Made by a program: the position numbers and the translations under genes. Shown here in pieces: positions 16,339 to 62,930 of a stretch of DNA of 64,000 nt. Every line of letters begins with the position of its first letter. Positions within the stretch are counted from its first letter, which is position 1. This stretch comes from Streptomyces griseochromogenes (GTDB taxonomy: Bacteria; Actinomycetota; Actinomycetes; Streptomycetales; Streptomycetaceae): contig NZ_CP016279.1 of NCBI RefSeq assembly GCF_001542625.1, forward strand, positions 7,316,001 through 7,380,000, in the 5' to 3' direction. A model generated the notes under the pieces. It made no database searches, was not told the origin of the DNA, and saw only the letters and a program-made list of their open reading frames with translations.

Positions 16339-16347
16339 CCCCTCGGC

Positions 16348-41025: not shown

Positions 41026-42180
41026 TCAGGGCCGCAGACCGGCCAGACGGCGCAGTTCGGTGCGGGCCGACTCGGCCCGCGGTACGTCCGGCGCGCTGAA
41101 GTGGACCTCCACGTTCGCCGTGCCGCCGTCCTCGGGACCGCGTGCCTCCAGGACGCCGGGGACGGCGGCGGCCCGCTCGCGCAGTCCGGGCACGGGGGGC
41201 AGCTGGGTGCGGCCGACGATGCCGGGGCGCGGTTCGTGCGACAGGGGGCCGAGGGGCTCGCCGAGCGCGGCCCGGACGAACTCGTCCCACAGGTCGTAGC
41301 CGTGCGCGTGGTGCACCATCCGCGGGATGCCGAGTCCGCCGGGGCGGATCGCCACCTCACCGACGACGGGGCCCCGCGCGGTCCCGAAGACTTCCAGGTG
41401 GGTGACGCCGTCGCGCAGTTCGATCGCGGCGGCCACCCGGCGGTGCAACTCGAGCACCTGCTGGGCGAAGGGGTCGGACTGGTCCATGACGTAGCCGCTG
41501 TCGACCTCGGGGGGCGTGTCCAGCGGAACGGTGAAGTAGCGGGACACCGCGGCCCGGCGCACCACGCCGTCCCGGACGACGCCGTCGCAGTGGTACTCGG
41601 CGGAGAACTCCACGAGCCGCTCCACGAGTACGGGCACGCCCCGCGCGCCGAGGTCGTCGAAGGCTCCCTCGTCGAGCCGGCGCCGGAACTCCTGCGGGGA
41701 GCCGACGCGGTAGGTCCTGGTCGCCATGGCGCCGAAGACGGGTTTGATCACCACCGGCCAGCCGGTGTGCTCGGCGGCGCGCGGCACGTCCCGCAGGGAG
41801 CCGGCCTGCGCGCAGTCCGTCACCGGCACGCCGGCGGCGCGCAGCCGGTCCTTCATGGCCCGCTTGTGCGCGGCCCACAGGGACTGGTCGAAGGACTGAC
41901 CGGGCACGCCGAGCAGGGAGCGGACGAGGCCGGCGGCCACGACGCTCTTCTCGGTGGCCGCGACGACGCGCTCGGGGGCTCCGTCACGGGACAGCTCGTA
42001 CGCGGCCCGCTCGACCTGGCCCAGATCCTCGAAGCTGTCGACGAAGGCGGTGTCGCAGCCCTCGTAGAGGTCCGCGTACGCCTTGCGGGTGATCACCTGC
42101 AGACGCAGGTCCTGACGTGCCCTCAGGGCCTGGAGGACCTCGGTCTTGTCGGAACTGAGCAGCAGCACACGGCGGCTCAC
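41026..42180 (-). CDS. ATP-grasp enzyme 1 of the phosphonate cluster
   Basis: The 384-residue protein has an ATP-grasp core: GWPVVIKPVFGAMA (nucleotide-binding Lys), PVLVERLVEFSAEYHCDGVV and VVGEVAIRPGG. These enzymes join a carboxylate, via acyl phosphate, to an amine, as in the L-amino-acid ligases RizA/RizB of rhizocticin. It is the last gene of the minus operon; the GTG at 42180 overlaps the metallophosphoesterase stop. It resembles the plus-strand ATP-grasp gene at 54644 (both have EYHCDGVV and SRYFT), so the two are paralogues within one cluster. Confidence 0.85.
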   Translation of the reverse strand: MSRRVLLLSSDKTEVLQALRARQDLRLQVITRKAYADLYEGCDTAFVDSFEDLGQVERAAYELSRDGAPERVVAATEKSVVAAGLVRSLLGVPGQSFDQSLWAAHKRAMKDRLRAAGVPVTDCAQAGSLRDVPRAAEHTGWPVVIKPVFGAMATRTYRVGSPQEFRRRLDEGAFDDLGARGVPVLVERLVEFSAEYHCDGVVRDGVVRRAAVSRYFTVPLDTPPEVDSGYVMDQSDPFAQQVLELHRRVAAAIELRDGVTHLEVFGTARGPVVGEVAIRPGGLGIPRMVHHAHGYDLWDEFVRAALGEPLGPLSHEPRPGIVGRTQLPPVPGLRERAAAVPGVLEARGPEDGGTANVEVHFSAPDVPRAESARTELRRLAGLRP

Positions 42181-42869
42181 GCGCTCTCCTCGTGGCGTCG
42201 CGACCCGGACGGATCGCAGAGGTGGTAGGTGACGGTGGCGGCGTCCTCGTCGACGACGACCCAGGCGGGGGACGGCCCGCGTTCGGGCGCGGCCGTGGCC
42301 ACCGAGCCCACGTTGACGACGTAACGGGCACCGGATGCCAGGTGGACCGGCTCGTCGAAGCGCACGGGCAGCCGCCGGGCGGCGGCGTGGCCGGTGCCGG
42401 GCAGCGGCACCTGGTGCAGGGCACTGCGGTGGTGGTGGCCGTGGACGAGGACGCGGCCGGGGAAATCGGCGTCCACCGGCGACCACACCCCCGGCTCCGT
42501 CTCCCGCCAGGGCAGCGGATGTCCGTGGCAGTACACGGCGAAGCCGGTGCGGTGTTCCAACGGGGCCCGCAGCAGGGGCGGTGTCCACGGGGGCAGGTGT
42601 GCGGGCGGCACCAGGGAGGCGATGCGTTCCTCCTGGTTGCCGCGCAGCAGCAGCACCCCGTCCAGCAGCTCGGCGGTGCGCGGGTCCGCCTCGAAGACGT
42701 CCTCGACGGTGCGGAACACGTGTGCAGCGGCCCGGCTCTTGCTCACCCGGCACTCGAAGACGTCGCCCAGGCAGATCACGTGGTCGACGTGCTGCCGCCG
42801 GATCCTCGCGAGAACCTCGCCCAGTGCCGCGATGTCCCCGTGGACGTCGGTGAGTACGGCGTAGCGCAC
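42177..42869 (-). CDS. Calcineurin-like metallophosphoesterase
   Basis: The 230-residue metal-dependent phosphoesterase has DVHGD, CLGDVFE, the third motif RGNQEE (His of the usual GNHE replaced by Gln), CHGHPLP and HGHHH. The Gln change removes a residue that usually helps catalysis or phosphate binding, so the substrate or rate may be unusual. It lies between two ATP-grasp genes, so it may remove a phosphate from a pathway intermediate. It overlaps the next gene (GTGA). Confidence 0.83.
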   Translation of the reverse strand: MRYAVLTDVHGDIAALGEVLARIRRQHVDHVICLGDVFECRVSKSRAAAHVFRTVEDVFEADPRTAELLDGVLLLRGNQEERIASLVPPAHLPPWTPPLLRAPLEHRTGFAVYCHGHPLPWRETEPGVWSPVDADFPGRVLVHGHHHRSALHQVPLPGTGHAAARRLPVRFDEPVHLASGARYVVNVGSVATAAPERGPSPAWVVVDEDAATVTYHLCDPSGSRRHEESA

Positions 42870-42872
42870 GGT

Positions 42873-44075
42873 TCAGTCACCCGTCTCGATCAGCACGCGG
42901 TCGCGCAGTGCCGCGCCGCGCCGGGCGGCGTCGGCCGCGTCCGTCCCGGTCACGAGGACATGACCGGCCCGGTCGTCGGAGCCGCGCACGGGCCCGACCC
43001 GGTCGCCGACGGCGACGTCCAGGGACACGATGTCGTCGGCCCGCTCCGGCTCGGGTACGCGGATGCGGCGGACGGTCCCCGGTGCCGGCGCGAGGAACCG
43101 GATGGCCGCACCGGCCGACGCCACGGGTTCGGCGGGCGGCGGCGCGAGCAGCCCGAGGGGGCAGCCGACCGTGAGGGCGGGCAGGTCCAGCCCGTAGGCG
43201 CGGCGGACGAGTTCGCGGATCTTGTCCCCGCCGATCCGGTTGTGCGACTCGATGATCCGCGGACCGCCGGAGGTGATCTTCACCTCCGTGTGTGCGGGTC
43301 CCTCCCGCAGCCCCACGGCGTCGAGGAAGGCGGCCACCAGCGCGGCGGTCTCCTCACGGACACCGGCGGGCAGCCGGCTGGGTACCGTGTGACCGGCCTC
43401 GACGAACGAGGGCCACACGTCCTTGTCGGTCATGGTGATGACGGTGTGCGTCCCGTCGTACGTGAACGTCTCGACGCTGATCTCCGGTCCGTCCAGGAAC
43501 TCCTCGGCCACCGGACCGGTTCCGCCGGCCGCGGCGAACCGCGCCCAGACGTCCTGCGCGTCGGCGGGTGTCTCCACCCGGAACACGGCCTCGCTGCCGC
43601 TGCCGGCCGCCGGTTTGAGGATCACCGGGCCGCCCGTCGCAGCGCTGAACGCGGCCAGTTCGGCGGCGTCGCGCGGTGCGGCGGTACGCACGGGGCTGAG
43701 TCCGCGCGCGTTCAGCAGGGTGCGCATCTCCCGTTTGTCCTGGAGCAGCCGCACGGTGCGCAGCGCGTTGCCGGGCAGGCCGAGGCGTTCGGCGACCGCC
43801 GCGGCGGGCAGCAGTCCGGACTCCGTGAGGGACAGCACCCGCTGGAGGGGATGTCCGGCGTGCAGCCGGGCCAGTGCCGTGTGCAGCGCGCCGGTGTCGG
43901 CCAGATCGACGGCGAGCACCTCGTCGGCGTCGTCCGCGCACCCCGGGACGGGCCCGCCCGCATCGTGCACCAGGACGGTGCGCACGCCCAACGCCCGTGC
44001 GCCGCAGACGAGTTGCGGGGTTCCCGCGATCACCGCGATGCGCGGTGCCGCGCGCCGGACATCCCCTTCGTTCAT
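42873..44075 (-). CDS. ATP-grasp enzyme 2 of the phosphonate cluster
   Basis: The 400-residue carboxylate-amine ligase has the signatures GGPVILKPAAGSGSEAVF, AEEFLDGPEISVETFTYDG and EVKITSGGPRIIESHNRIGGD. It belongs to the ATP-grasp class resembling biotin-carboxylase-like amino-acid ligases and is only distantly related to the other cluster members. It shares ATGA with the glutaredoxin-like gene upstream. It probably forms a peptide or amide bond in the phosphonopeptide. Confidence 0.85.
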   Translation of the reverse strand: MNEGDVRRAAPRIAVIAGTPQLVCGARALGVRTVLVHDAGGPVPGCADDADEVLAVDLADTGALHTALARLHAGHPLQRVLSLTESGLLPAAAVAERLGLPGNALRTVRLLQDKREMRTLLNARGLSPVRTAAPRDAAELAAFSAATGGPVILKPAAGSGSEAVFRVETPADAQDVWARFAAAGGTGPVAEEFLDGPEISVETFTYDGTHTVITMTDKDVWPSFVEAGHTVPSRLPAGVREETAALVAAFLDAVGLREGPAHTEVKITSGGPRIIESHNRIGGDKIRELVRRAYGLDLPALTVGCPLGLLAPPPAEPVASAGAAIRFLAPAPGTVRRIRVPEPERADDIVSLDVAVGDRVGPVRGSDDRAGHVLVTGTDAADAARRGAALRDRVLIETGD

Positions 44076-44365
44076 GCCTGGCTCTCCGCCGCGGGCCCGG
44101 GCTCGGCCCGGACGGCGTCCGGATCGCCGAACCGCTCCTTGAGGTACGCGATGATGTCCGCGTTCTCCCGCAGCTTGCCGGGGATGACCGTGGCGCCGTC
44201 CACCAGGGCCGGGATGTACTTGCTGCCGGTGACCCTGATCAGTTCGTGCCGCTCCTCGCGGGGCTTGGGCACGTTGACGTTCATGTACGACACCTGCAGC
44301 CGGGTGAGCAGTTCACGGACCGGCTTGCAGTCGGGGCAGGTCTCCCGCTGGAACAGGACCAGCAT
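44072..44365 (-). CDS. Glutaredoxin-like small thiol protein
   Basis: The 97-residue thioredoxin-fold protein has LFQRETCPDCKPVREL, an active-site CPDC pair, and TGSKYIPALVDG, typical of glutaredoxin or GST-N-like folds. Streptomyces has no glutathione, so mycothiol or another partner is likely. It sits inside the phosphonate operon; its ATG at 44365 coincides with the end of the aminotransferase gene. Its role in the pathway is unknown. Confidence 0.8.
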   Translation of the reverse strand: MLVLFQRETCPDCKPVRELLTRLQVSYMNVNVPKPREERHELIRVTGSKYIPALVDGATVIPGKLRENADIIAYLKERFGDPDAVRAEPGPAAESQA

Positions 44366-45507
44366 CAGTTCTCTCCCTCGTGGACGGTGCGGACGATCTC
44401 CCCGGTGCCGGTGCCGGGCGTGAAGCGGTGGCCGCAGTCGAGCAGGGCCATCTCCAGCGCGCCGAAGACCGCGCACAGATCGAGGGCGTCGGCGGCGCCG
44501 ACGTGGCCGATCCGCAGGAGCTTGCCCTTGAGGTGGGCCTGTCCGCCGGTGACGGTGACGCCGTACTTGACGGAGAGGGTCTTCAGCAGCGTGCCGGTGT
44601 CGATGCCCTCGGGGGCGAGGGCGGCGGTGATCACGTTGCTGCGCCGGTGGGGCGGCTGGATGAAGGTGCTGAACCCGAGGGCGACCAGGGCGCGTTCGGC
44701 GGCGCGGCCGAGGCCGGCGTGGCGCTCGCGGAAGGCGTCGAGCCCCTCCTCACCGAGCATCTTCAGCGACTCGTGCAGGCCGAGCAGCAGCGAGACGGCC
44801 GGGGACGAGGAGGACATCGGGTAGAACTGCCGCAGGCGCTGGAACGACCAGTAGTAGTTCGGCCCGGCGGACCGTTCCACGGCGGTCCACGCCTTGTCCG
44901 AGAGCGCGATGAACGCCAGGCCCGGCGGGAGCATGAAGCCCTTGTGCGAGGCACCGAGCACCACGTCCAGGCCCCAGGCGTCCATCTCCACCGGGTGCAC
45001 CAGCAGACCGCTGATCGCGTCGACGACGACGATCGCGTCGGTGTCCCGGAAGATCTCGCCGATGGCCCGGACGTCGTTGAGAGCGCCGGTGGAGGTCTCG
45101 CTGTAGACGACGAGGACGCCGCGGATCCCGGGATGGCGTGCGTGGGCATCGGCCACCTCCCGCGGCGAGATGCTGGTGCCCCAGGGGCTCTCGACCACGT
45201 GCGCAGTCAGGCCGTAGGCGCGGGAGATCGCCTGGAAGCGCTCGCCGAAGTAGCCGTTGGAGACGATCAGGACCTCTTCGCCCGGGGAGAAACAGTTGGC
45301 GACCGCGGCCTCCATGGCACCGGTGCCCGAGGAGGCGATGGTGTAGACCGGGGATCCGGTGCCGAACAGGGGCGGCAGGCCGGCGTTGATCTCGTCGATC
45401 AGCGCCTCCATCTCCGCGGAGCGGTGGTGCACGATCTCGCGGGCGCCCGCCAGCAGCAGCCGCTGGGGGACCTCGGTGGGGCCGGGTGTGGCCAGCCGCA
45501 GTTTCAC
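44365..45507 (-). CDS. Class V PLP-dependent aminotransferase
   Basis: The 380-residue fold-type I enzyme is of the alanine-glyoxylate / serine-pyruvate / 2-aminoethylphosphonate transaminase group: ATPGPTEVP at the start, YTIASSGTGAMEAAV, VVDAISGL and the PLP lysine in GASHKGFMLPPGLAF. In this cluster it could aminate phosphonoacetaldehyde (giving 2-aminoethylphosphonate) or the keto acid made by the aldolase. Sequence alone does not decide. GTG at 45507 overlaps the YjbQ stop (GTGA). Confidence 0.86.
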   Translation of the reverse strand: MKLRLATPGPTEVPQRLLLAGAREIVHHRSAEMEALIDEINAGLPPLFGTGSPVYTIASSGTGAMEAAVANCFSPGEEVLIVSNGYFGERFQAISRAYGLTAHVVESPWGTSISPREVADAHARHPGIRGVLVVYSETSTGALNDVRAIGEIFRDTDAIVVVDAISGLLVHPVEMDAWGLDVVLGASHKGFMLPPGLAFIALSDKAWTAVERSAGPNYYWSFQRLRQFYPMSSSSPAVSLLLGLHESLKMLGEEGLDAFRERHAGLGRAAERALVALGFSTFIQPPHRRSNVITAALAPEGIDTGTLLKTLSVKYGVTVTGGQAHLKGKLLRIGHVGAADALDLCAVFGALEMALLDCGHRFTPGTGTGEIVRTVHEGEN

Positions 45508-45968
45508 TCGTTGCTCTCCTTGCCGGTGGGAAGCCCGTTCCCGGACGAGGCAGGGCGGGGCGGGTCGATGAGGACACGGCGCGTGGCCGGTTTGAGGTCG
45601 AAGTCGAACAGGACGACGCGGTGTGTGGCCGACATGCCGAGCGCGCCGTCGGCGTAGGGCACGAGCAGGCTCGTGCCGAGCAGGGACGACTTCAGGTGGG
45701 AGAACCCGTTGGGGTCGCCGGTGGTCAGTTCGTGCAGGTAGCGGGCGCCCTCGGCGGGGGTCGCGGGCGCCATCCGGTCCAGCGCGGCGAGCAGGTCCTG
45801 CACGGCTCCCGGTTCGTAGCGCATCACCGTCAGACCCACGGTGCTGCCGTGGGCGAAGACGCCGGCCAGTCCGTCGCCCGCGTGGTGCTCGGCGAGCAGC
45901 CGGACGACGTCGTCGGTGATGTCGTAGTGGGAGTTCAGGCCCGTGCTGGGCACCTTCAGTTCGATCAC
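45504..45968 (-). CDS. YjbQ/UPF0047 family protein
   Basis: The 154-residue protein has the UPF0047 pattern: GLAGVFAHGSTVGLTVMRYEPG and SHLKSSLLGTSLLVPYADG, then a short C-terminal tail. Members have been tested as weak thiamine-phosphate synthase substitutes; their true function is uncertain. It is wedged between the kinase-like gene and the aminotransferase gene with 4-bp overlaps on both sides, so it is almost certainly part of the pathway. Confidence 0.82.
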   Translation of the reverse strand: MIELKVPSTGLNSHYDITDDVVRLLAEHHAGDGLAGVFAHGSTVGLTVMRYEPGAVQDLLAALDRMAPATPAEGARYLHELTTGDPNGFSHLKSSLLGTSLLVPYADGALGMSATHRVVLFDFDLKPATRRVLIDPPRPASSGNGLPTGKESNE

Positions 45969-47089
45969 CGGGCGCCGCCTGCGGCCTCGCGCACGGCCCG
46001 CGGGAGGTTGTGCGCGTCCAGGTCGCCGGGGCCGGACACGGTCCACGCCGGTACGGAGGCGAGCGCGCGGGCGATGCGGGCGCGGTGTCCGGCGGTCCCC
46101 TCGCGCCGGTCGTCGAGGAAGTGGTGCCAGCCGGCGTTGGCGCCGTCGAACGCCGACTCCAGGTTGGCGTTCAGCATCGCGGCCACGGCCGCCGGGTCGT
46201 CCGTCACGGGCTCGACCAGGGTCCGCTCCCCCGGGCCGATCGCGGGGTGCAGGATCGCCGCCACGGGGACGTGCACGTCGAGCGGGGCGCTCGGGAAGCG
46301 CTCGCGGAACCGGACGGGGTCCACCGCGAACTTGCCGAGCGGCGAGAACGCGTGGGTCGCGGGCGGCTCGTAGTCGTCGGTGATGCCGGCGATCTCCTTG
46401 AGCCCCTCGTACTTGGCGATGGTGCCGTAACCGAGGTGGGGGTAGTCGGGCCAGCCTGCCGCCAGCACCGAACCGTCGGGCCGCTCGTGCAGCACGGTCT
46501 TGTCGCCGCTGAGGACGCGGTAGCCGAAGTGCTCGACCAGCTCCAGCAGCAGGGTGCTCTTGCCCGCGCCCTTGGATCCGGTGACGAGCACGGCGGTGCC
46601 GTCGCGGTAGGCGGCGGTGGCGTGCAGGACCGCGGCTCCGGAGTTCTCCTGCTCCTTCAGCACCAGGTCGCGGACGAGCTCGACGAGGTCCATGGCGCCC
46701 TCTGGCCCGAGCGCGACGTCGATGGTGCGCGCCGCGCGGTCGAAGACGAACCGGGTACCCGTCTTGGTGCACTCCAGGTACTCGCGGCCGTCGGCCGCGG
46801 TGCGCCGGGCGGGGACGGTGAAGAACGCGCTCGCGCTCTTGCGGACGTAGATGTCCTCCCAGTCCGCGGCGCCGGCCGGAGTGTGCCGGGTGTCGGGGGC
46901 GGCGGCGACGCGCAGGGTCGCCAGCGGCTCGCGCGGACCGGCGGCCGGTTCGGCCGGCCGTGCCGCCAGGTGGGTGCCGAGGAAGGCGAGGGCGCCGTCG
47001 ACGTCTGCGCCTGCCTCGACCTCCAGGTCGAGCAGGGTGCCGTGGAAGTCCAGGTGCAGCAGGGTGGGTCCGGACAGGGTCGTGGTCAT
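45965..47089 (-). CDS. HPr-kinase-like P-loop protein (small-molecule or peptide kinase)
   Basis: The 374-residue protein has a P-loop TGSKGAGKSTLLLEL, the HPr-kinase-like GDKTVLHE (Asp of the metal site) and an N-terminal region of about 190 residues with no recognised domain. Bacterial HPrK relatives can phosphorylate serine-type hydroxyls on small or peptide substrates, as in lasso-peptide tailoring. Here the hydroxyl produced by the aldolase is a natural candidate. ATG at 47089 overlaps the PEP mutase stop. Confidence 0.8.
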   Translation of the reverse strand: MTTTLSGPTLLHLDFHGTLLDLEVEAGADVDGALAFLGTHLAARPAEPAAGPREPLATLRVAAAPDTRHTPAGAADWEDIYVRKSASAFFTVPARRTAADGREYLECTKTGTRFVFDRAARTIDVALGPEGAMDLVELVRDLVLKEQENSGAAVLHATAAYRDGTAVLVTGSKGAGKSTLLLELVEHFGYRVLSGDKTVLHERPDGSVLAAGWPDYPHLGYGTIAKYEGLKEIAGITDDYEPPATHAFSPLGKFAVDPVRFRERFPSAPLDVHVPVAAILHPAIGPGERTLVEPVTDDPAAVAAMLNANLESAFDGANAGWHHFLDDRREGTAGHRARIARALASVPAWTVSGPGDLDAHNLPRAVREAAGGAR

Positions 47090-47991
47090 CGCGCGGCCTC
47101 CGCCAGCTCCCGGCCGAGGGCCTCGTAGCGGGACTGCTGGTCCAGCATCTGCGGCATGCGCTGCAGGTCGAAGAGCTCCTTCAGCGGGGCGAGTTCGTCC
47201 TCCACGTGGTGGGTGGTGCCGTCCTGCATGATCCGGGTGAGCGTGTGCCGCATGGCACGCACCGAGCTGCGCAGCGCCTGGTTGGCGTAGATCGCCATGG
47301 CGAAGCCACGGCTCTGGAGTTCGTCGGCGGTCACGCTGTTGTACGTGGTCGGTACGACGATGACGGGCAGGTCGCCGTCGTAGGCCTCGCGGAAGGCGAA
47401 CACCTCGTCCGGGTCGTCGCGCTTGGAGTGGATGAGCAGGGCGTCGGCGCCGGCGCGCTCGTACACCTCGGCGCGGCGCAGCGCCTCGTCCATGCCGAGC
47501 CCGGAGATCAGGGCCTCCAGCCGGGCGACGACGACGAGTTCGCGGCGGACGTCCACGGCCGCCCGGATCTTTCCGGCGAAGTCGTCGAGCGGGGCCAGGT
47601 CCTGGTTGCCCTCGACGAAGCTGTTGAGCTTGGGGAACTGCTTGTCCTCGATGCACACGCCGGCCACGCCGCGCGCCTCGTAGGAGCGGACCATGTGGAT
47701 GACGTTGTTGACGTTGCCGAATCCCGAGTCGCAGTCGGCGAGGACGGGGACATCCACGGCGGCGGTCAGCGACGCGGCGGTGTCGAGGCACTCCGGCATC
47801 GCCAGGATGTTGGCGTCCGGCACTCCGGCGGCGGCGGAGATCTCCAGTCCGCTGGACCAGATGACGTCGAAGCCCGTCTCTTCGGCGAGGCGTGCGCTGA
47901 GCGGGTTGTGGGCGCCCATGGCACGGGCGAGCCGGGGTGCGCGCAGGGCGGCCAGGAGCCGGCCGGCGGCGGAGTCGGTGGTGTGGGTCAT
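47086..47991 (-). CDS. pepM: Phosphoenolpyruvate phosphomutase (PEP mutase)
   Basis: The 301-residue isocitrate-lyase-superfamily enzyme makes the C-P bond by rearranging PEP to phosphonopyruvate. The diagnostic EDKQFPKLNS (residues 115-124) is present, with DCDSGFGNVNNV (metal and substrate binding) and GAHNPLSA near the N-terminus. The equilibrium strongly favours PEP, so a following irreversible step is needed; the decarboxylase subunits are encoded two and three genes upstream in the same operon. It is the defining gene of a phosphonate cluster. Confidence 0.96.
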   Translation of the reverse strand: MTHTTDSAAGRLLAALRAPRLARAMGAHNPLSARLAEETGFDVIWSSGLEISAAAGVPDANILAMPECLDTAASLTAAVDVPVLADCDSGFGNVNNVIHMVRSYEARGVAGVCIEDKQFPKLNSFVEGNQDLAPLDDFAGKIRAAVDVRRELVVVARLEALISGLGMDEALRRAEVYERAGADALLIHSKRDDPDEVFAFREAYDGDLPVIVVPTTYNSVTADELQSRGFAMAIYANQALRSSVRAMRHTLTRIMQDGTTHHVEDELAPLKELFDLQRMPQMLDQQSRYEALGRELAEAAR

Positions 47992-48995
47992 GACGAGGTC
48001 TCTTCCGTGAGTGCGCGGCACACCTGCTCGACCTCGTCGTCGAGCACCTTGTGCGGCTGCTTCGCGCCCAGACGGCGCCCGACCTCCCAGGGGTCGAGTC
48101 CGAACTGCGCGCTGATCTTGTCGATGCGGTCCTGGAAGTAGAAGTGGTGGTCGTTGATGCCGGCGGCGATCTCCGCGCGGCGCACCGTCATGGGGCGCGG
48201 CAGCACACGTTCGGCGACGTACTCCGAGGCCTCGCACACGGTCGGCAGATGCGCGTGGGTCTCGTAGCGGGGCCAGGCGGTCAGGAACGCCGCCGCCTGC
48301 TCGGTGGCGAGGTTCCCGGCGCCGCGCGCCATGGCGCACAGCGACGCGTCCAGCCAGCCGGCGCCGGCGTCCAGGGCCGCGAGCGCGTTCGCGGCGGCGA
48401 GGCCCAGGTTGTTGTGAGCGTGGACGCCGACGGGGATCGGCAGGCGCTCGGTGAGCAGGCTCATCCGCTGCCGGACGTCGTCGGGGGTGAGGCCGCCGAA
48501 GGAGTCGGCGATGTAGAAGACGTCGGGCAGCTCGCCGCGCACCAGGTCGGCGATCTCCGCCAGTTGCCCGGGGGTCGTGTAGCTGACGGCCATCAGGTTC
48601 ACGCCGACCTTGAGGCCGAGGCGCCGTACGGCGCGCACGTACTCCGGCACGCCGGCCATGTTCCACGGGTAGGCGGCGATGCGGACCATGGAGACCGGGC
48701 TGTCGGGCAGGTCCTCCAGGGCGTCGACGGGGCACACGGTCGGGACGGCCATCACGGCGAGTTCGGCGTGGTGCACGTCGGGCAGGGCCGCGAGGTACTC
48801 GGGTGTGCAGTGGGCCGAGGGGCCCGCGGTCGCGCTGGACCGGCTGCCCGAACCGCCGCGGTAGCCGACCTCGATGACGTCGATCCGCGCCGCGTCCAGG
48901 GTGCTGACGATGGTGCGGACGTCTTCGGGGGTGAACTGCCAGTCGTTCTGGTTGCCGCCGTCGCGCAAGGTGCAGTCCAGCAGTACGGGCTTCAC
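47988..48995 (-). CDS. DRE-TIM metallolyase (4-hydroxy-2-oxovalerate-aldolase-like)
   Basis: The 335-residue protein has the catalytic start LLDCTLRDGGNQNDW and the metal-binding HAHNNLGLAAANAL, hallmarks of the DRE-TIM family (HMG-CoA lyase, isopropylmalate synthase, hydroxyoxovalerate aldolase). In rhizocticin biosynthesis the related enzyme RhiG joins phosphonoacetaldehyde to oxaloacetate; the position here, between the decarboxylase and PEP mutase genes, supports the same chemistry. GTG at 48995 overlaps the decarboxylase stop. Confidence 0.82.
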   Translation of the reverse strand: MKPVLLDCTLRDGGNQNDWQFTPEDVRTIVSTLDAARIDVIEVGYRGGSGSRSSATAGPSAHCTPEYLAALPDVHHAELAVMAVPTVCPVDALEDLPDSPVSMVRIAAYPWNMAGVPEYVRAVRRLGLKVGVNLMAVSYTTPGQLAEIADLVRGELPDVFYIADSFGGLTPDDVRQRMSLLTERLPIPVGVHAHNNLGLAAANALAALDAGAGWLDASLCAMARGAGNLATEQAAAFLTAWPRYETHAHLPTVCEASEYVAERVLPRPMTVRRAEIAAGINDHHFYFQDRIDKISAQFGLDPWEVGRRLGAKQPHKVLDDEVEQVCRALTEETSS

Positions 48996-49561
48996 CGGTT
49001 CACCGCCGCCTGCGGCGCGAGGGCCAGCTCGTCCCGGAAGCGTGCCACGAGCTGCTGCGGCGTCGGCTCGACGCGGCGGCCCGCCGGGTGTGTGCGCGGG
49101 GCGCACCTGATGTGCAGCAGCGTGGGCGAGCCGTCGAACTCCACGGCGGCGAGGGCGTCCAGGCTGTCGGCCGTGTACGCGGCGGGGTAGCCGACGGCGC
49201 GGGCCAGGGCGGCCGGGTCGCCGAGGACCGCGGTGCGCTGTCCTCCCGTGCTCTCGTGCGCCCCGTTGTCCAGGACGACGTGCACGAGATCGGGCCGGTG
49301 TTCGGCGATCATCGCGAGGCAGCCGGGGTTCATGGCGAACGAGCCGTCGCCGTCGAGGACGAGCACCCGGCGCCCGGGGTGGGCGAGGGCGATGCCGAGG
49401 CCGATGGGCGCCGCCATGCCCATGGAGCCGACGAGGTAGAAGTTCTGCGGCCGGTCGGCCAGGTTGTACAGGTCGCGGGTGATGTAGCCGCAGGTGCTGA
49501 CGGTGAGCGCGGCGGGTTCGCGCTCCAGCAGTGCGCCGATGGCCGTTCGGATGTCCAGCAC
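48992..49561 (-). CDS. Phosphonopyruvate decarboxylase, ThDP-binding (C-terminal) subunit
   Basis: The 189-residue protein corresponds to the PP domain of a thiamine-diphosphate enzyme: GSMGMAAPIGLGIA, GDGSFAMNPG and VLDNGAHEST (the GDG...DN cofactor motif). In most phosphonate producers this domain is fused to its PYR domain in a protein of about 375 residues; here it is a separate gene 1 nt downstream of the PYR gene. Together they would convert phosphonopyruvate to phosphonoacetaldehyde. GTG start at 49561. Confidence 0.88.
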   Translation of the reverse strand: MLDIRTAIGALLEREPAALTVSTCGYITRDLYNLADRPQNFYLVGSMGMAAPIGLGIALAHPGRRVLVLDGDGSFAMNPGCLAMIAEHRPDLVHVVLDNGAHESTGGQRTAVLGDPAALARAVGYPAAYTADSLDALAAVEFDGSPTLLHIRCAPRTHPAGRRVEPTPQQLVARFRDELALAPQAAVNR

Positions 49562-49562
49562 G

Positions 49563-52824: not shown

Positions 52825-53358
52825 CTTTCCTCCGGCCCGCTGCTGCGGGCTAGTCGGTCCCCTGCAAAGTATTCCGAGAGGGTGTCGGGCAGGGCACAGC
52901 CATCCCGAGCGGGACATTTTCGGCCCATCTACGGAGTCGCGAATTCAGGAAAACAGACATCCCCGTAGCTTCCTGCAACTCGCCCTGCGGCATCCCTCCG
53001 GCGCCTTGGGCGCCCCGTGGGGAAACCTGTGAGTCAGCTGTGCGCCTCGGCCCCCCGACACCGCACACCTATCGACACCTGCCCCTATAACAGCAGGTCA
53101 GAACGTCGACACGAACGTGATCTTGACCACACGAAGGAGATCTTGCCGCGATCTGGTGGCCTCAGGCAAGATCGTTTCGCCAGATGCCGAATAGCACCGA
53201 ACTCTTCCTCGGGGTCACGGGGGCGACCGCTCCGCAAAGCATCCGTGCCCCAGTCGGAAATCTTCTGCCGTTCGGCCCGGTGGCGTTTCGCCCGTTTTCC
53301 CAAGGAATACGGCGCACACCGGGGACGCACCAGGCACGCCTTATAACGGGGAATTCAC
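52825..53358. promoter_or_regulatory. Divergent promoter region of the phosphonate cluster with repeated GATCTTG motifs
   Basis: This 530-bp gap holds GATCTTGAC (53119-53127), GATCTTGCC (53139-53147) and its inverted copy GGCAAGATC (53165-53173), a perfect inverted repeat with a 17-bp spacer. TTGCCG-N18-CAAGAT on the plus strand (53143-53172) and TTGCCT-N18-CAAGAT on the minus strand (53169-53140) could be two face-to-face promoters. The first two copies are exactly 20 bp apart. No gene was found here. Confidence 0.55.
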
Positions 53359-54501: not shown

Positions 54502-54643
54502 CACCGGGCCGCCCGGCCGCGACGGCGATCCGCCGTGCCGCGTCCCGGCCGCCCTTCCCTTTCACACCGGTGCGCTTCCCCTCCGGAACACCTGTGTCTT
54601 TCCCCTCCGAAGCCCGATCGAAGTCCGAGCAGAGAGAGCCCTC

Positions 54644-55858
54644 ATGACCCGGCATGCCCTGGTCCTATGTTCCCGTCGCCGCGCCATGCCCGCACGGCTG
54701 TTCGAAAGCCCTGGAGCGGAGCGGGTCTCGGTCGTCACCGAGACCGGTCACACCCATCGCTTCCCGCTCGGCGTCGACATCGTGGAGGTGTCCGACATCC
54801 GCGACTGCGGCGAGGTGCTGCGCGCGGCGGTCTCCGTCGCGCGCCGTGAGCCGGTCGAACACATCGTCACCCCGGTGGAGTTCAGCCAGGCCACGGGCGG
54901 ATACGTGCGCTCCACCCTGGGTCTGCCAGGGCTCGGCTACGAGTCCGCGCTCGGGTTCTCGAACAAGTACGTGATGAAGCGCCGGCTGCGTGAGGCGGGG
55001 CTGCCCGTCACCGAGTTCGCCCAGGTCCTCGCGCTGGAGGAGGTGCCCCGTGCCGCCGAGCGAACGGGCTGGCCCTGCGTGGTCAAGCCGGTGTTCGGCG
55101 GGGGCTGCCTCGACGTCGTGGTCTTCGAGTCACGGGCCCACTTCGACGCGTTCGCGGCCTCGCCGGAGGCGGACTCGCTGCGTGAGTCCCGCGATCCCCT
55201 GATCGTCGAACGCTTCGTCCCGATGGACGCCGAGTACCACTGCGACGGCGTGGTGCACGACGGAGAGGTGCAGTTCGCGGCGGCATCCCGCTACTTCACT
55301 CCCCTCCTAGGCCAGATCGACAACTTCAGCGGCTCGTACTTCCTGCCCGACGGCCACCCCGATCTCGCCCCCGCGCTCGACCTGCACGCCCGCGCCGTAC
55401 GTGCCCTGGGCATGCGGTCGGGGGTGACCCATCTGGAGCTGTTCAAGACCCGCGACGGCTTCCTGGTGGGCGAGATCGCCTGCCGCCCGGCCGGCGGCGG
55501 CATCACCGAGGCACTCGATCTGCAGTACGGCGTCGACCTGTGGCAGGCGTTCTGGGACACCTCCATCGGCCGCGCACCACGCTGCGAGCCTCGGCGCAGG
55601 GACGGCATCGTCGTCAACGCGGACTTCCCGACCCGGCCCGGGCGCATCACCCGGCTGGCCGCCGAGGCGGAACTGGCCGCACTGCCCGGTGTGATCAGAG
55701 CCCGGATGACGATGGCGGTCGGCGATGTCATCCCGGTCGACCTGACGTCCTCGACCAGTCCGGGGCTCGTGTTCTACGAGGCGCGCGACGAACAGCAGGT
55801 CGCCTCCCGTCTCGACCACATCCGCGACGCCTACTTCCTGGAGACCACCGCCCCGTGA
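54644..55858 (+). CDS. ATP-grasp enzyme 4 of the phosphonate cluster
   Basis: The 404-residue carboxylate-amine ligase has GWPCVVKPVFGGGCLDVV, DAEYHCDGVVHDGEV and LVGEIACRPAGGG. It is a close relative of the ATP-grasp enzyme at 41026: both have EYHCDGVV, SRYFT and matching middle blocks, suggesting duplication within the cluster. It shares GTGA with the NRPS gene downstream, so product assembly by the two is coupled. ATG at 54644. Confidence 0.85.
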   Translation: MTRHALVLCSRRRAMPARLFESPGAERVSVVTETGHTHRFPLGVDIVEVSDIRDCGEVLRAAVSVARREPVEHIVTPVEFSQATGGYVRSTLGLPGLGYESALGFSNKYVMKRRLREAGLPVTEFAQVLALEEVPRAAERTGWPCVVKPVFGGGCLDVVVFESRAHFDAFAASPEADSLRESRDPLIVERFVPMDAEYHCDGVVHDGEVQFAAASRYFTPLLGQIDNFSGSYFLPDGHPDLAPALDLHARAVRALGMRSGVTHLELFKTRDGFLVGEIACRPAGGGITEALDLQYGVDLWQAFWDTSIGRAPRCEPRRRDGIVVNADFPTRPGRITRLAAEAELAALPGVIRARMTMAVGDVIPVDLTSSTSPGLVFYEARDEQQVASRLDHIRDAYFLETTAP

Positions 55859-58800
55859 ACAGGCCGACCGCCGAACCCGGACGGCATCCGGGCCACCGCG
55901 CGCAGCGGACGGCACCCGACTGCGCGGCACCCTCCGCCCCCTTGTCCCCGACGGCGCCCGACACCGTCGTCGCCCGCTTCGAGCGGATCGCGGCACGCCA
56001 CCCGGGCCACCCCGCCGTCGAGCAGCACGGCGATGTCACCGACTACGCCCGGCTGCACCGCCGTATGCGCGAGATCTCGGCCGGGCTCACCGGCCTGGGT
56101 GTCGGGCCCGGCGACCGGGTCGCCCTGCGCGGCCGGGCATCGGCCGAACTCGTGGCCGCCGTGCTCGGTGTCCTGCACTGCGGCGCGGTGCTGCTGCTCC
56201 TCGACGAGTCCCTGCCGGCGGCCCGTGCCGAGGCGTTCACCGAGCAGGTCAGGCCGCGCGTCCGGCTGGCCGCGGACCCCGTGGCACCCGCGCCGGGCGA
56301 GCTCCCGGTGGCGCGGTTCACCCGGGCCGGGGACCACACGCCGGTGCCCGGCGACGAGGCGTACGTCTTCTTCACCTCCGGCTCCACCGGTGCCCCGAAG
56401 GGCATCCTCGGCAGCCATCGGGGACTCGCCCACTTCATCGACTGGGAGATCGGAGCCCTGCGCGTCGGCCCCGGCGACCGGGTGGCCCAGCTGACCAGCC
56501 TGTCCTTCGACGTCGTCCTGCGGGACCTCTTCCTGCCGCTGTGCTCCGGAGCGACCCTCGTCCTCTCGGACACGCCCGGGAACCTGCACGGGCGCTCCGT
56601 GCTGCCCTGGCTCGCCCGCACCCGGGTGACCGTCCTGCACACGGTGCCCTCCCTGGTGCGCGGCTGGCTGCGCTCCGGCTGCGACACCGGACCCACCGCC
56701 CTGCGCGCGACGTGCTTCGCCGGTGAACCGCTGGACGCCCGGCTCGCCGGACAGTGGCGGGCCGCGGCCCTGCCGGCCGGTGAGATCTGGAACTTCTACG
56801 GCCCGACCGAGACCACGCTGGCCAAGCTGGCCCACCGGGTCACCGGCACCGAGAGCCCCGGCATCCTGCCCGTGGGGCGCCCCCTGCCGTCGTGCGAGGT
56901 GCTCCTCGTCGGTCCGGACGGCCGTCCGGCCGCCCCCGGCACGACGGGCGAGGTCGTCCTTCGCACCCCGTTCCGCAGCCGTGGCTACCTCGACGGTGAG
57001 GGCAGGCGGCCCACCGGGGGGTTCCGGCACGACCCCGACGGCGGAGCGGACGACTGGCTCTATCACACGGGCGACCTGGCCTCCCGCACGCCGGACGGCC
57101 ACTACGTCGTCCACGGCCGGCGCGACGACCAGGTCAAGATCCGCGGACTGCGGGTGGAGCCCGCCGAGGTCGCCGCGCAGGTGCGCGGCGCGGCCGCCGC
57201 CCACGGCGGCGGGGACGCCTTCGTGACGGCCGTCGAGCGGCCGGATCCGGGCGACAAGCAGCTGGTCGCGCTGGTGGACGGCGGTCTCACCGAGGCCGCG
57301 CTCGCCGACGTCGCAGGCACCCTGCGCGAACGGCTGCCGCTGGCCATGGTGCCGTCCGTGTTCCGGTCGCTGCCCGTCTTCCCGCTCACCGCCAACGGAA
57401 AGGTCGACCGCGCCGCCCTGCGCACGCTGGCCCGGCAGGCCGCGGCCGAGGACGCGGCCCCACAGGCCGAGGGCTCCGCGCCGTCCGGAGCGAACGGCGA
57501 CGACCCGGTGCTCGCCGCCGTGTGCGCGGCCATGGCGACGGCGCTCGGGCTGGCCTCCGTCCCGCCGGACGCCGACTTCTTCGCCCTGGGCGGCGACTCC
57601 CTGGCCGTCGCGGAGCTGCTCGCGATCCTCGCCGACGAGCACGGCATGGCGGACCTCGGCCACACCGACGTCCTGCGGGCGCCCGGCCCCGCCGCACTGG
57701 CGGCACGGATCGGCCGGCGGGACGTCACCACGGGCGCCGGCCGGTTCGACCCCGACGGCATCCCGCACACGCCCACGATCGGAGAGCCGTATCCGCTCTC
57801 GCCGCAGCAGCGCCGGTTCGCCGCCTTCTATCTCACCGAGCCGCCGCGCAACTGGTCCACCGTGCAGCTGCGCGTCCCGCTGCCCGAGCACCTCGACGTC
57901 CGCGAGCTGCGCGCCGCCCTGCGGGTGCTCGTGGCCCGGCACCCGAGCCTGCGCACCCGGTTCGCCACCGTGGCGGGAGTCCCGCACCAGGAGGTGCGCC
58001 CGCCGTCGGAGGTGCCGCTGGACCTGCCGGAGCACGCCGGTCCACCGGGCGTGGTCGCGGCCGCTCTGATCACCGAGCCCGTCCCCGTCGACGCGGGCTT
58101 CCCCTGGTCCGCGGCGGTGGCGCGGGACGCCGACGGCGCCGAGCTGATCCTGACGCTCAACCACATGGTCACGGACGGCACGTCCCAGACGATCCTGAGG
58201 GCGGACCTCGATGCCGTACTCGCCCATCTGCGGCACGGCAGCGCTCTCCCGCCGCCACCGACGGCCCCGGCCTACGTCGAGTACGCACGCCGGCAGAACG
58301 CGGCCGAGCAGGCGGACACCGAACGGCTGCTGGCCTTCTGGCGCCGCGAGTTCGCGGGTCTCGCACCGACCGCCCTGCCCCGGCCCGCGGGGCACCGCGA
58401 GGACGCGCGGGGAGCGTACGCCGCTCTCGGCCTCGACCTGGCGGGGGCCGCTTCGCCGGGCGCGGCGGCACGCGAACTGGGCTGTACGCCCTTCGCGTTG
58501 ATGCTGGGCGCGTTCACGGACACGCTCGCCGAGCACCTCGGCCGCGACGACCTCGCGGTGCAGATCCCGTCGACGGGGCGGCCGCACCCCGCCACGCTCC
58601 CGGTCGTCGGCAACTTCCACAACATCGTCCCGGTACGGCTGTCCCGCCTCGCCTCGCCGGCCGGCACCGCCCGTGAGGCGCAGGCCGCGCTCGCCCGCTC
58701 CCTGGACCATCAGTGGCTCCAGCTCGACACCATCGTCCGCGCACTGGGCATGGACCCGGCGGCCGAGCCGTATCCGCTCAGCAGCGTGCTGTTCAACGCC

Positions 58801-59040
58801 ATCCCCGGGTCCAGTCCCCTGCTGCCCCAGGGGACGGGCTTCACCGCGGGCGGCCTGCCGTACGACGTCCGTTACGACCTGATGGGTGTCGTGCGCGGCC
58901 AGGGCGACGCCTGGGTCCTCGAACTCCATTACAGATCAACCCTGTTGGACCCGCAGACCGCCGAGCGGCTGCTGCGCTCCATGGCCGGCCGTCTCACCGG
59001 CGCCGGCACACCGCCCGAAGCACACCACACCACTCACTGA
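55855..59040 (+). CDS. Nonribosomal peptide synthetase, A-PCP-C
   Basis: The 1061-residue synthetase has an adenylation domain (about residues 35-535: TSGSTGAPKG, NFYGPTETT, YHTGD, GRRDDQVKIRG), a peptidyl carrier (LGGDSLAVAELL, phosphopantetheine Ser about 582) and a C-terminal condensation domain with NHMVTDG about residues 768-774, where the first His of HHxxxDG is Asn but the catalytic second His remains. Ten-residue specificity positions read roughly DVRHCAFLAK, which I cannot assign. With the C domain last, it is built to pass its amino acid to a free acceptor or another partner. GTG at 55855. Confidence 0.88.
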   Translation: MNRPTAEPGRHPGHRAQRTAPDCAAPSAPLSPTAPDTVVARFERIAARHPGHPAVEQHGDVTDYARLHRRMREISAGLTGLGVGPGDRVALRGRASAELVAAVLGVLHCGAVLLLLDESLPAARAEAFTEQVRPRVRLAADPVAPAPGELPVARFTRAGDHTPVPGDEAYVFFTSGSTGAPKGILGSHRGLAHFIDWEIGALRVGPGDRVAQLTSLSFDVVLRDLFLPLCSGATLVLSDTPGNLHGRSVLPWLARTRVTVLHTVPSLVRGWLRSGCDTGPTALRATCFAGEPLDARLAGQWRAAALPAGEIWNFYGPTETTLAKLAHRVTGTESPGILPVGRPLPSCEVLLVGPDGRPAAPGTTGEVVLRTPFRSRGYLDGEGRRPTGGFRHDPDGGADDWLYHTGDLASRTPDGHYVVHGRRDDQVKIRGLRVEPAEVAAQVRGAAAAHGGGDAFVTAVERPDPGDKQLVALVDGGLTEAALADVAGTLRERLPLAMVPSVFRSLPVFPLTANGKVDRAALRTLARQAAAEDAAPQAEGSAPSGANGDDPVLAAVCAAMATALGLASVPPDADFFALGGDSLAVAELLAILADEHGMADLGHTDVLRAPGPAALAARIGRRDVTTGAGRFDPDGIPHTPTIGEPYPLSPQQRRFAAFYLTEPPRNWSTVQLRVPLPEHLDVRELRAALRVLVARHPSLRTRFATVAGVPHQEVRPPSEVPLDLPEHAGPPGVVAAALITEPVPVDAGFPWSAAVARDADGAELILTLNHMVTDGTSQTILRADLDAVLAHLRHGSALPPPPTAPAYVEYARRQNAAEQADTERLLAFWRREFAGLAPTALPRPAGHREDARGAYAALGLDLAGAASPGAAARELGCTPFALMLGAFTDTLAEHLGRDDLAVQIPSTGRPHPATLPVVGNFHNIVPVRLSRLASPAGTAREAQAALARSLDHQWLQLDTIVRALGMDPAAEPYPLSSVLFNAIPGSSPLLPQGTGFTAGGLPYDVRYDLMGVVRGQGDAWVLELHYRSTLLDPQTAERLLRSMAGRLTGAGTPPEAHHTTH

Positions 59041-59056
59041 ACCCGAGGCATCTGAC

Positions 59057-60379
59057 TTGTCGAAACATGACGCTGACCTGATCGGGATCGGATTCGGGCC
59101 GGGGAACCTGGCCCTCGCGGTGGCCCTCAAGGAGCGCCACCCGCACCTCCGCGCCGTCTTCCTGGAGGCACGCCCGGGCCCCGCCTGGCAGCCGGGCATG
59201 CTGCTCGACGGCTCCGACATCCAGAACAACCCCGTGCGGGACCTGATCTCACCGGCCGACCCGCGCAGCCGGTTCACCTTCATCAACTATCTCCACGAGA
59301 CCGGCCGCTTCTTCTCCTACCTCAACCTCGGCATCGACTACCCGCTGCGCAAGGAGTACGCCGGGTACGTGCGCTGGGTGGCCGAGAACGTCGGCGCCGA
59401 CGTCCGCTACGGCGCCGAGGTCACCGCCGTCGTCCAGGACGGGGACGACCCGGCCACGGCGGTCGTCCGGCTGAGTGACGGGTCCGAGCTGCGCGCCCCC
59501 GCCGTGGTGGTGGCCCCCGGCCGCACCCCGTACGTGCCCGAGCCCTTCGATGCCCGGCGCGACCCCCGGGTGCGCCACTTCACCGAGTACCTGGACGCGC
59601 TGTCCCTCATCGAGGGGCGGGCCGAGCCGCGGGTGGTGGTCGTCGGCGGCAGTCAGAGCGCGGTGGAGCTGCTGCTCGACCTGCGGTCCCGGCTGCCGCG
59701 CGGCCGGGTCACGGGCATCGTGCGGAGCTTCGGCTACCGGCAGAAGGACACGAGCCCGTTCATGGACGAGGTCTACCTGCCGGAGTTCGTCGACTACTAC
59801 TACGCGGCCTCCGAGGACGCCAAGCGGGCCCTCAACCGGGACCTGCGCTTCACCAACTACTCGGCCGCCGACATCGACGTGGTGCACGAGCTGTATCTGA
59901 AGTTGCACGAGGACCGGCTCGACGGTGCCGAACGCGTCGAGGTCCGCCGCTGCACCGCCGTCGAGGCGTGCGCCTCCGATGACGACCGGGTGACCCTCTC
60001 CGTGCGCGAGCGGTACACGGACACCGTGGACGAGATCGACGCCGACCTGGTGATCCTGGCCACGGGCTTCAAGGACCTCGGGTCCCCGAAGGAGGGCGGG
60101 GAGTTCCTGCCCGCCCTGCTGGACGGCGTCGCCGCCGAAGTGCGCAGCACCCCGTCCGGCCGTGCCGACGTCGGCCGTGACTACCGGCTGGCCGCGGCCG
60201 ACCCCGAGGCCCCGTTCCCGCTGCTGTATCTCAACGGTCTGTGCGAGACCTCGCACGGCATGGGAGACGCGGGCTCGTTCAGCCTGCTCGCCCTGCGGGC
60301 CAAGGAGATCGCCTCCTCGCTGGAGCACCACCTCGACGGGCGGGAGACCCCTGCCCCCACCGACCGCGCCACCGCCTGA
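59057..60379 (+). CDS. Flavin-dependent N-monooxygenase (L-ornithine/L-lysine N-hydroxylase family)
   Basis: The 440-residue protein has an N-terminal FAD motif LIGIGFGPGNLALAV, NADPH motif VVVGGSQSAVEL and the family's C-terminal ATGFKDL. These enzymes hydroxylate a side-chain amino group of ornithine, lysine or diamines, making hydroxamate precursors. The start is TTG 59057, since the FAD motif must lie at the N-terminus and no ATG or GTG is placed well; GAGG lies upstream. It follows the NRPS gene by 16 bp. Confidence 0.87.
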   Translation: MSKHDADLIGIGFGPGNLALAVALKERHPHLRAVFLEARPGPAWQPGMLLDGSDIQNNPVRDLISPADPRSRFTFINYLHETGRFFSYLNLGIDYPLRKEYAGYVRWVAENVGADVRYGAEVTAVVQDGDDPATAVVRLSDGSELRAPAVVVAPGRTPYVPEPFDARRDPRVRHFTEYLDALSLIEGRAEPRVVVVGGSQSAVELLLDLRSRLPRGRVTGIVRSFGYRQKDTSPFMDEVYLPEFVDYYYAASEDAKRALNRDLRFTNYSAADIDVVHELYLKLHEDRLDGAERVEVRRCTAVEACASDDDRVTLSVRERYTDTVDEIDADLVILATGFKDLGSPKEGGEFLPALLDGVAAEVRSTPSGRADVGRDYRLAAADPEAPFPLLYLNGLCETSHGMGDAGSFSLLALRAKEIASSLEHHLDGRETPAPTDRATA

Positions 60380-60401
60380 GCCGACGAAGGAAACACAGTC
60401 C

Positions 60402-61730
<1,329 letters not shown>

Positions 61731-61740
61731 GGAAGCACCA

Positions 61741-62930
61741 TGCCCACACTTTCCGAGCGCTCCCGCGTCTTCAGGCCCCAGCCGATGTTCGAGATCCTCG
61801 CCGCCGCGCAGGAACTGGAGCAGCGCGGTCTGCCCGTCATCCACCTGGAGATCGGGGACACCAAGGGGTTCGTCAACCCGCACGTGGTGCGCGAACTGCG
61901 CACGGTCACCGAGAATCCCCAGCTCGGCTATGTCGCCTCCGGCGGTACTCCGGCGCTGCGGCAGGCCTTCGCCCGCCAGTACGCGGCGGAGAAGGGCGTC
62001 GCGTTCACCGAGCGCAATGTCGTCGTCGCCCCGGCCAACGCGCTGATCAGCCAGTATCTCGGCGTCACCTGTGATCCCGGGGACGCCGTGCTGATTCCCG
62101 ACCCGGGCTTTCCGACGTACTTCCTGGGCGCGGAGTTCAACGGCCTGCGGGTGATCACCTACCCGCTGGACCCGGCCGACGGCTGGAACCCCGACCCGGA
62201 CGCCGTCGAGGAACTCGTCCGTCAGAACCCCGATGTCCGCTGCCTGCTGGTGAACTCGCCGTCCAATCCGCTGGGCACCGTGATGGAGCCCGGCCGGCTC
62301 CAGGCGCTGCTGGACCTGGCGGACCGGCACGGCCTGCACTGTCTGTTCGACGAGACCTACAAGAACCTGGTCTTCGACGGCGACACGCCCGCTCCCCTGC
62401 ACCGGCCCGGCGTCACCTACCTGTACTCGCTTTCCAAGGACGCGGCCGCGCCGGGCCTGCGGGTGGGGTGCGCCGTGAGCGAGAACACCGAGCTGATCGG
62501 CAAGCTGGTCGACTACAGCTCGCTGTTCTTCTCCTGCGGGCCGGGACTGATGCAGGAGGCCGCGCTCGCCTACGTGACCCGGGACGACAGCGCGGAGTTC
62601 GCGCGGGGCATCCGGGAGGAGATCACGGCGCGGGTCGAGAAGGCCGACAAGATCCTCGCGGAGTGCGAGGAGTTGTCGTACGTCCGGCCGTCCGCGGCGT
62701 TCTATCTCTTCCTCGACATCTCCTCGACCGGGCTCGGCGCCCGGGAGTTCGCCTACCGGCTGCTGCGCGAGCAGCAGGTGTGCGTGTGCCCGGGCGACTC
62801 CTTCGGTCAGCAGGGAGCCGGCTGTGTGCGGGTGACCCTCGCGGGCGACCCCGTGGAGCTGGAGGACGGCCTGCGCCGGCTGGCGGCCTTCGTCCGGTCG
62901 GCCCGAACGGAGGCCGAAGCGCACCGCTGA
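61741..62930 (+). CDS. Class I/II PLP-dependent aminotransferase
   Basis: The 396-residue enzyme has VIHLEIGDTKGF at the start, VNSPSNPLGTVM, FDETYKNLVFDG and the PLP lysine in YSLSKDAAAPGLRVG. It is an aspartate/alanine-type aminotransferase; the substrate may be the keto acid made by the aldolase, giving the phosphonate amino acid. It is the last gene of the plus operon, only 10 bp after the preceding one, and is followed by a terminator. Confidence 0.86.

Follow-up and report, generated by a model that had tools for sequence, protein, structure and literature searches.

A cluster of 19 open reading frames (ORFs) of Streptomyces griseochromogenes (NCBI RefSeq assembly GCF_001542625.1) probably encodes a hybrid pathway to a new phosphonopeptide of the 2-amino-5-phosphono-3-pentenoate (APPA) type, in which an APPA core and a second, peptide-forming half act in one product. 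The cluster lies at 41026-62930 of the analyzed window, a stretch of 64,000 nucleotides corresponding to positions 7316001-7380000 of the genome, which is a single contig (NZ_CP016279.1) of 10764674 bases. The left half is formed by 13 genes of the minus strand (52824 down to 41026) and the right half by six genes of the plus strand (53359-62930). The core itself is of a known kind; the new part is its union with a separately occurring peptide cassette. The detailed chemistry of the residues is less certain than the action of both halves in one product. Gene content, order, homology, boundaries, and recurrence were read directly from the sequences.

Conserved phosphonate core of the left half

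The minus-strand genes are transcribed in the order AtpG1, MFS (major facilitator superfamily), PpdA, PpdB, Ald, PepM, HprK, YjbQ, AT5, Grx, AtpG2, MPE, and AtpG3. The cluster proteins were assigned to families with Pfam and NCBIfam; all proteins listed in an earlier note on this DNA were found encoded in 41026-62930, some with scores below the curated cut-offs. The phosphoenolpyruvate (PEP) mutase PepM (47086-47991) matched PF13714 with a score of 187.3 (cut-off 31.5) and carries the motif EDKxxPKxNS as EDKQFPKLNS, exactly as that note had read it. Both chains of the two-subunit phosphonopyruvate decarboxylase were closest, among solved structures, to RhiE/RhiF: the alpha chain PpdA (49563-50090) to 9iz3_A (E 4.9e-47) and the beta chain PpdB (48992-49561) to 9iz3_B (E 2.7e-51), 9iz3 being the rhizocticin enzyme RhiEF (PMC12141560). 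The RhiG-like aldolase Ald (47988-48995), an HMGL-like protein and kin of 4-hydroxy-2-oxovalerate aldolase, scored 180.9 with TIGR03217, under the cut-off of 286, and was 44% identical to its counterpart in a Bacillus tequilensis locus (L049). It adjoins pepM and the run of kinase, YjbQ, AT5, and Grx genes, an arrangement found in 21 of 29 loci (see below).

The HprK-like protein (45965-47089), proposed as the kinase of a 4-hydroxyl group, remained under the family cut-offs (AAA_16, 24.5 vs. 32.6; HprK_rel_B, 34.9 vs. 200); its homologues carry PF27840, and the P-loop residues were invariant across 41 aligned sequences. The YjbQ/UPF0047 protein (45504-45968; PF01894) is the candidate for a phosphate-eliminating step. 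The core is completed by AT5 (44365-45507), a class V aminotransferase with BhcA, pyridoxamine-pyruvate transaminase, and PhnW as the nearest models, and by the glutaredoxin-like Grx (44072-44365; PF00462).

The distribution of the core was followed with the kinase, for which 84 homologues were obtained at E 0.001. One profile scan of genome contigs, with the kinase alignment of 41 sequences, gave 29 loci, to which the window proteins were mapped by best match. The order PpdA, PpdB, Ald, PepM, HprK, YjbQ, AT5, Grx was kept in 21 of them, 15 actinobacterial (L030-L043, L046) and six from Firmicutes (L049, L051, L053-L056), with piecewise matches to the kinase in L046 and to AtpG2 in L039. The PEP mutase motif was present in the same 21 loci. 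In seven kinase loci (L044, L045, L048, L050, L052, L057, L058), the flanks as fetched contained none of the core genes for phosphonate formation, and L047, the eighth locus without the core, is a fragment. Homologues of AtpG2, MPE, and AtpG3 accompanied the core in all 15 actinobacterial loci, AtpG3 each time at the same place; an MFS relative was found in 13 of these loci and AtpG1 in three, Glycomyces tenuis (L043, 67%) and two Nocardiopsis (L041, L042; 52–55%). Within the genus, 19 of 392 genomes gave a match to the kinase at 1e-10, and beyond the own genome only one (G095, 72%) exceeded 40% over most of the kinase length.

APPA, which forms the headgroup of both rhizocticin and plumbemycin, is very likely the product of the left half, because the eight-gene order is conserved, PpdAB is closest to RhiEF, and threonine synthase homologues were found in four of the six Firmicutes core loci (L049, L051, L053, L054). 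The aldolase of the rhizocticin-type pathway is said, after Borisova et al. (2010), to use oxaloacetate. APPA is an inhibitor of threonine synthase that rhizocticin, plumbemycin, and phosacetamycin are said to release (PMC13302981). A B. tequilensis strain reportedly carries the rhizocticin cluster (PMC10083409); L049, which has the core order, comes from a different strain of this species. Streptomyces aureus is given as a producer of phosacetamycin (PMC12723261), and a strain of this species (L034) possesses the core. The idea of an unknown phosphonate core was rejected, the core having the rhizocticin-type gene order.

Peptide cassette of the right half

The plus-strand genes are transcribed in the order FemAB, AtpG4, NRPS, Nmo, AT3, AT1. 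The first encodes a FemAB/GNAT_6-like transferase (53359-54501; PF13480, PF04339), for which no solved relative was found at E 0.1 or better. It is followed by the ATP-grasp amino acid ligase AtpG4 (54644-55858; ATP-grasp family matches) and by a non-ribosomal peptide synthetase (NRPS; 55855-59040) with adenylation, peptidyl carrier protein, and condensation domains (A-PCP-C; PF00501, PF00550, PF00668). Nmo (59057-60379; PF13434) is an N-monooxygenase of the Lys/Orn type; its nearest solved relatives are 3s5w (L-ornithine monooxygenase), MbtG, and KtzI. AT3 (60402-61730) belongs to the diaminobutyrate-2-oxoglutarate transaminase family (TIGR00709, 450.3, over the cut-off of 401.6), and the three solved structures related to it at 1e-70 are all diaminobutyrate transaminases. 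AT1 (61740-62930) is a pyridoxal phosphate enzyme of the class I aminotransferase fold; its best model was the cyclodehydratase GntC (200.6, under the cut-off of 415), and its matches among solved structures were general enzymes of the class I transaminase fold.

By best-match mapping, FemAB, Nmo, AT3, and AT1 were assigned no place in any of the 29 kinase loci. The NRPS gave two partial matches there (L044, 27%; L047, 34%), and the matches labeled AtpG4 in the Firmicutes loci (24–33%) look like general ATP-grasp similarity. The fetched flanks extend about 7 kb before PpdA, where FemAB and AtpG4 would show if placed as in the window. Among the 392 genomes, the AT1 query recovered at 1e-70 the own genome and the genome G359, and FemAB was matched at 1e-15 in 58 genomes including the own one, with only one other (G165, 47%) above 40%. 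Nearer FemAB homologues came from protein databases, at 76%, 71% (partial; Streptomyces sp. NPDC048606), 66%, and several at 50–55%. Plasmid records contained no close relative of the kinase (seven records) or FemAB (14 records), none of them covering 80% of the query.

In G359, relatives of the right-half proteins had identities of 54% (AtpG4), 27% (FemAB), 55% (NRPS), 69% (Nmo), 70% (AT1), and 40% (AT3), with those of NRPS, Nmo, and AT1 adjacent to each other. A single run in G165 contained relatives of FemAB (47%), MFS (49%), AtpG1 (52%), AtpG4 (44%), and NRPS (33%). Each of the two genomes had four PF13714 matches, all without the PEP mutase motif. The run in G165 adjoins ORFs which by eye resemble a polyketide synthase piece and transposases. 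The pocket motifs of the NRPS were nearly alike in the window, G359, and G165, so the three enzymes probably share a substrate, which would not be a phosphonate. Read by eye at presumed residue positions, the adenylation-domain code was D-V-R-H-C-A-F-L-A-K; G359 differed at one position and G165 at two. An aminoadipate-type code carries R and H at the corresponding positions, which serves as a lead only.

Relation between the two halves

Both operons of the window fill one slot and share one divergent gap. Homologues of both halves recur in a second named strain, Streptomyces sp. NPDC048606: the kinase (78%) and the partial FemAB (71%) are each listed on a contig of 28618 bp, and Nmo (82%) on a contig of 7091 bp. 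From the equal size and the strain name we infer that the kinase and FemAB are on one and the same contig. Relatives of the kinase (90%) and Nmo (89%) were also found on ENA contigs, which may or may not come from one organism. In G165, relatives of the left-operon proteins MFS and AtpG1 stand beside those of FemAB, AtpG4, and NRPS, so that genes of both window operons are mixed.

Several observations weigh against the assignment of the cluster to a single APPA-type product. Each half was found alone: the right-half relatives stand in one stretch in G359, a genome without the phosphonate core, and AT1 was absent at 1e-40 from all 16 genomes with the core, a search without a dedicated positive control, although at 1e-70 the query does recover the own genome and G359 (see above). 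G165 holds relatives of five genes from both operons and lacks the core. The kinase is not specific to the core, eight of its 29 loci being without it, and PepM just misses the cut-off of TIGR02320 (309.6 vs. 319.55). No threonine synthase match was obtained at E 1e-5 in the window or in the sequences fetched for the 15 actinobacterial core loci, the query being the first (L096) of the two own genome copies (L096, L097). Finally, both the N-hydroxylation and the role of AT1 are guessed from the protein families.

Part of these data would fit a slot shared by two independent neighboring pathways, of which that of the minus strand would make a plumbemycin-like APPA peptide and that of the plus strand a small non-phosphonate peptide. 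The run of plus-strand relatives in G359, without a motif-bearing PEP mutase, speaks for such an arrangement, as do the compact core clusters that stand alone in actinobacteria. We nevertheless regard it as rather unlikely: NPDC048606 also has the kinase, Nmo, and a partial FemAB, G165 combines relatives of MFS and AtpG1 with those of FemAB, AtpG4, and NRPS, and one divergent gap is common to both operons. A single pathway is clearly favored.

Proposed pathway

We infer all reactions of the strain, most of all the step of kinase and YjbQ, the residue supplied by the right half, the N-hydroxylation, the coupling order, and the final structure. PepM would convert PEP to phosphonopyruvate, which PpdAB would decarboxylate to phosphonoacetaldehyde, and the RhiG-like aldolase would condense the latter with oxaloacetate. 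The HprK-like kinase and YjbQ may then remove the 4-hydroxyl as phosphate, and transamination by AT5 would give APPA. AtpG2, AtpG3, and AtpG1 are the candidates for attaching ordinary amino acids. The divergent operon may supply a further residue, a diamino acid made by AT3, probably 2,4-diaminobutyrate, of which the end nitrogen would be hydroxylated by Nmo and which AT1 may reshape. AtpG4, the A-PCP-C NRPS, and the FemAB-like transferase would attach this residue or its neighbor, and the MFS protein would export the peptide. In target cells, cleavage of the peptide would liberate APPA, and threonine synthase would be blocked by it.

An APPA peptide with an N-hydroxylated residue derived from diaminobutyrate, possibly reshaped by AT1, and built by ATP-grasp, NRPS, and FemAB-like chemistry is a tentative proposal for the product. 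If true, it would be a new kind of conjugate among threonine antimetabolites. The N-hydroxylated amine suggested by the earlier note has a candidate gene, that of the Lys/Orn-type monooxygenase, and is plausible. The right half could also add an ordinary residue that is not N-hydroxylated, with Nmo and AT1 acting elsewhere or making a separate metal-binding compound. N-Monooxygenases of the Lys/Orn type are frequently present in siderophore clusters, and siderophore enzymes are among the nearest solved relatives of Nmo. This possibility seems unlikely, as Nmo starts 16 bp after NRPS and ends 22 bp before AT3, and NRPS, Nmo, and AT1 remain adjacent in G359. A drifted core with a different phosphonate amino acid, for example an APPA relative keeping the 4-hydroxyl or its phosphate, would agree with the putative nature of the kinase, YjbQ, phosphoesterase, and glutaredoxin steps and with the absence of threonine synthase matches from the window and the actinobacterial core loci, but is improbable given the eight core genes in Bacillus-type order and the existence of Streptomyces peptides said to release APPA (PMC13302981).

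Comparison with known phosphonopeptide clusters

The rhizocticin (rhi) cluster of Bacillus has the same core order from PpdA to Grx, followed by a phosphoesterase and an ATP-grasp gene (L049), and RhiEF is the closest relative of PpdAB. The window differs by having no threonine synthase gene, by the extra AtpG1 and AtpG2 beside the core, and by the entire right half. Plumbemycin and phosacetamycin are known APPA peptides of Streptomyces (PMC13302981). The actinobacterial APPA-type clusters have the core together with AtpG2, MPE, and AtpG3 in common with the window (15/15); however, MFS and AtpG1, which precede the core in the window, follow it in the loci having them, and the right-half genes were not seen in the 15 loci. 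None of the sequences compared was labeled as the plumbemycin cluster. In a plain member of the rhizocticin/plumbemycin type, peptide bonds would be expected to be made by ATP-grasp ligases only. The window has NRPS and FemAB-like genes too, and the cluster is therefore a variant of this type. The gene set in G359 resembles the right half of the window, but that genome has no motif-bearing PEP mutase. The earlier note did not recognize the full gene set from rhizocticin or plumbemycin, a view that finds no support for the left half, with its order as in L049 and the 15 actinobacterial loci. Unusual are the right half and the joining of the two; the sense of novelty had rested on the wrong half. 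Its reading of a phosphonate, probably phosphonopeptide, cluster is supported.

The cluster appears to join three amide-forming enzyme classes, ATP-grasp, NRPS, and FemAB-like, and no report of this trio in one pathway was found in the open-licence literature. Argolaphos (alp), a phosphonopeptide with an N-hydroxylated residue, shares ATP-grasp and GNAT ligases with the window (PMC8976061), and only the addition of the NRPS makes the trio. It differs in the headgroup, aminomethylphosphonate, and in the proposed N-hydroxylase of the YqcI/YcgG type, and the rows seen of its gene table contain no NRPS (PMC8976061).

APPA peptides are described as Trojan horses, the amino acids attached to APPA determining the range of microbes affected (PMC11867202). 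The union of an APPA core with a foreign peptide cassette illustrates a natural way in which this range may be altered. The cluster also gives gene-level access to the formation of the APPA double bond (kinase and YjbQ) and to the division of labor between ATP-grasp, NRPS, and FemAB-like enzymes on one small peptide.

Cluster boundaries and remaining genes

The 19 ORFs occupy a slot of 22.6 kb on the chromosome, flanked by the genes of a DUF305 protein (39804-40472) and of PlsC (63074-63793), which are 22601 bp apart. With a limit of E 1e-90, PlsC was matched in 18 of 31 genomes including the own one, and neighborhoods were compared in 15 of the 17 others. The next flank gene on the cluster side of PlsC was RocD in seven, CtaG in five, and neither was seen in three; the distance between RocD and PlsC in the first seven was about 0.3 to 5 kb. 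In one relative (L125), the matched ends of the DUF305 and PlsC homologues are 677 bp apart. Since the flank spacing in relatives is short, the cluster occupies a variable slot and ends near 40.5 and 63.07 kb; the site beside PlsC (40473-63073) looks like such a slot. In Streptomyces sp. HNM0574 (L040, about 20540), an APPA-type core is also found close to a PlsC homologue, which is truncated by the end of the locus and matches at 83% over two thirds of PlsC, and in G006 (L132) NRPS-like matches adjoin PlsC.

Ten of the 12 neighbor gaps in the minus-strand operon measure −4 to +3 bp, the remaining two 56 and 188 bp. The operons are separated by a divergent gap of 534 bp (52825-53358), presumably the promoter region; a scan of 52700-53500 for sigma-70-type signals gave no promoter-like site and one terminator-like site, about what shuffled sequences give. 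Of the minus-strand genes flanking the core, AtpG1 (51550-52824) and AtpG2 (42873-44075) are ATP-grasp amino acid ligases (ATP-grasp_4, LAL_C2), the MFS transporter (50279-51493; PF07690) is a predicted exporter, and MPE (42177-42869; PF12850) is a calcineurin-like phosphoesterase. The ATP-grasp ligase AtpG3 (41026-42180) reached 25.1 and 22.6 bits with Pfam ATP-grasp families, under the cut-off of 27.

Resistance and regulation

The own genome has two threonine synthase genes over the cut-off, both located elsewhere, a number shared by 35 of the 37 genomes compared within the genus, the own included. A third threonine synthase as the resistance gene was rejected, two copies being the usual count. 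As the fetched sequences of the 15 actinobacterial core loci gave no match, a cluster-borne threonine synthase is, by homology search, not a defining feature in actinobacteria. The absence of a self-resistance gene, also stated in the earlier note, holds as far as tested. In two Paenibacillus loci (L053, 7148-8107; L054, 8866-9864), a threonine synthase homologue is encoded inside the core, with pepM on one side and the kinase gene on the other, and is likely a resistance gene. Family scans (Pfam/NCBIfam) gave no regulator among the 19 cluster genes, in agreement with that note. An Lrp/AsnC gene at 36979 was considered as the cluster regulator and rejected, a homologue being present in the corresponding gene run in relatives that lack the cluster.

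Other phosphonate loci in the genome

The genome contains two further phosphonate loci, L137 and L139, each with a motif-bearing PEP mutase. Three such pepM genes in one genome are unusual, because a survey saw one pepM per genome except for three strains with two (PMC12723261). L137 (genome C1:533000-552500, cluster at about 6617-18923 of the locus) begins with genes for an ATP-grasp protein, YqcI/YcgG, NDK, a GNAT protein (342 aa), a weakly matched helix-turn-helix/cupin protein, and PepM, followed by a two-frame Ppd match, an iron alcohol dehydrogenase (Fe-ADH), an aminotransferase match, and a nucleotidyltransferase. It is probably an argolaphos-type cluster, because the gene order matches alpC-alpM of the argolaphos table (PMC8976061). 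In L139 (genome C1:2922000-2941500, cluster at about 6704-17675 of the locus), the PEP mutase gene has NUDIX, inositol-phosphatase-like, PhyH, aconitase, homocitrate-synthase-like, and isocitrate-dehydrogenase-like genes as neighbors. This gene set resembles that of phosphonomethylmalate-type pathways.

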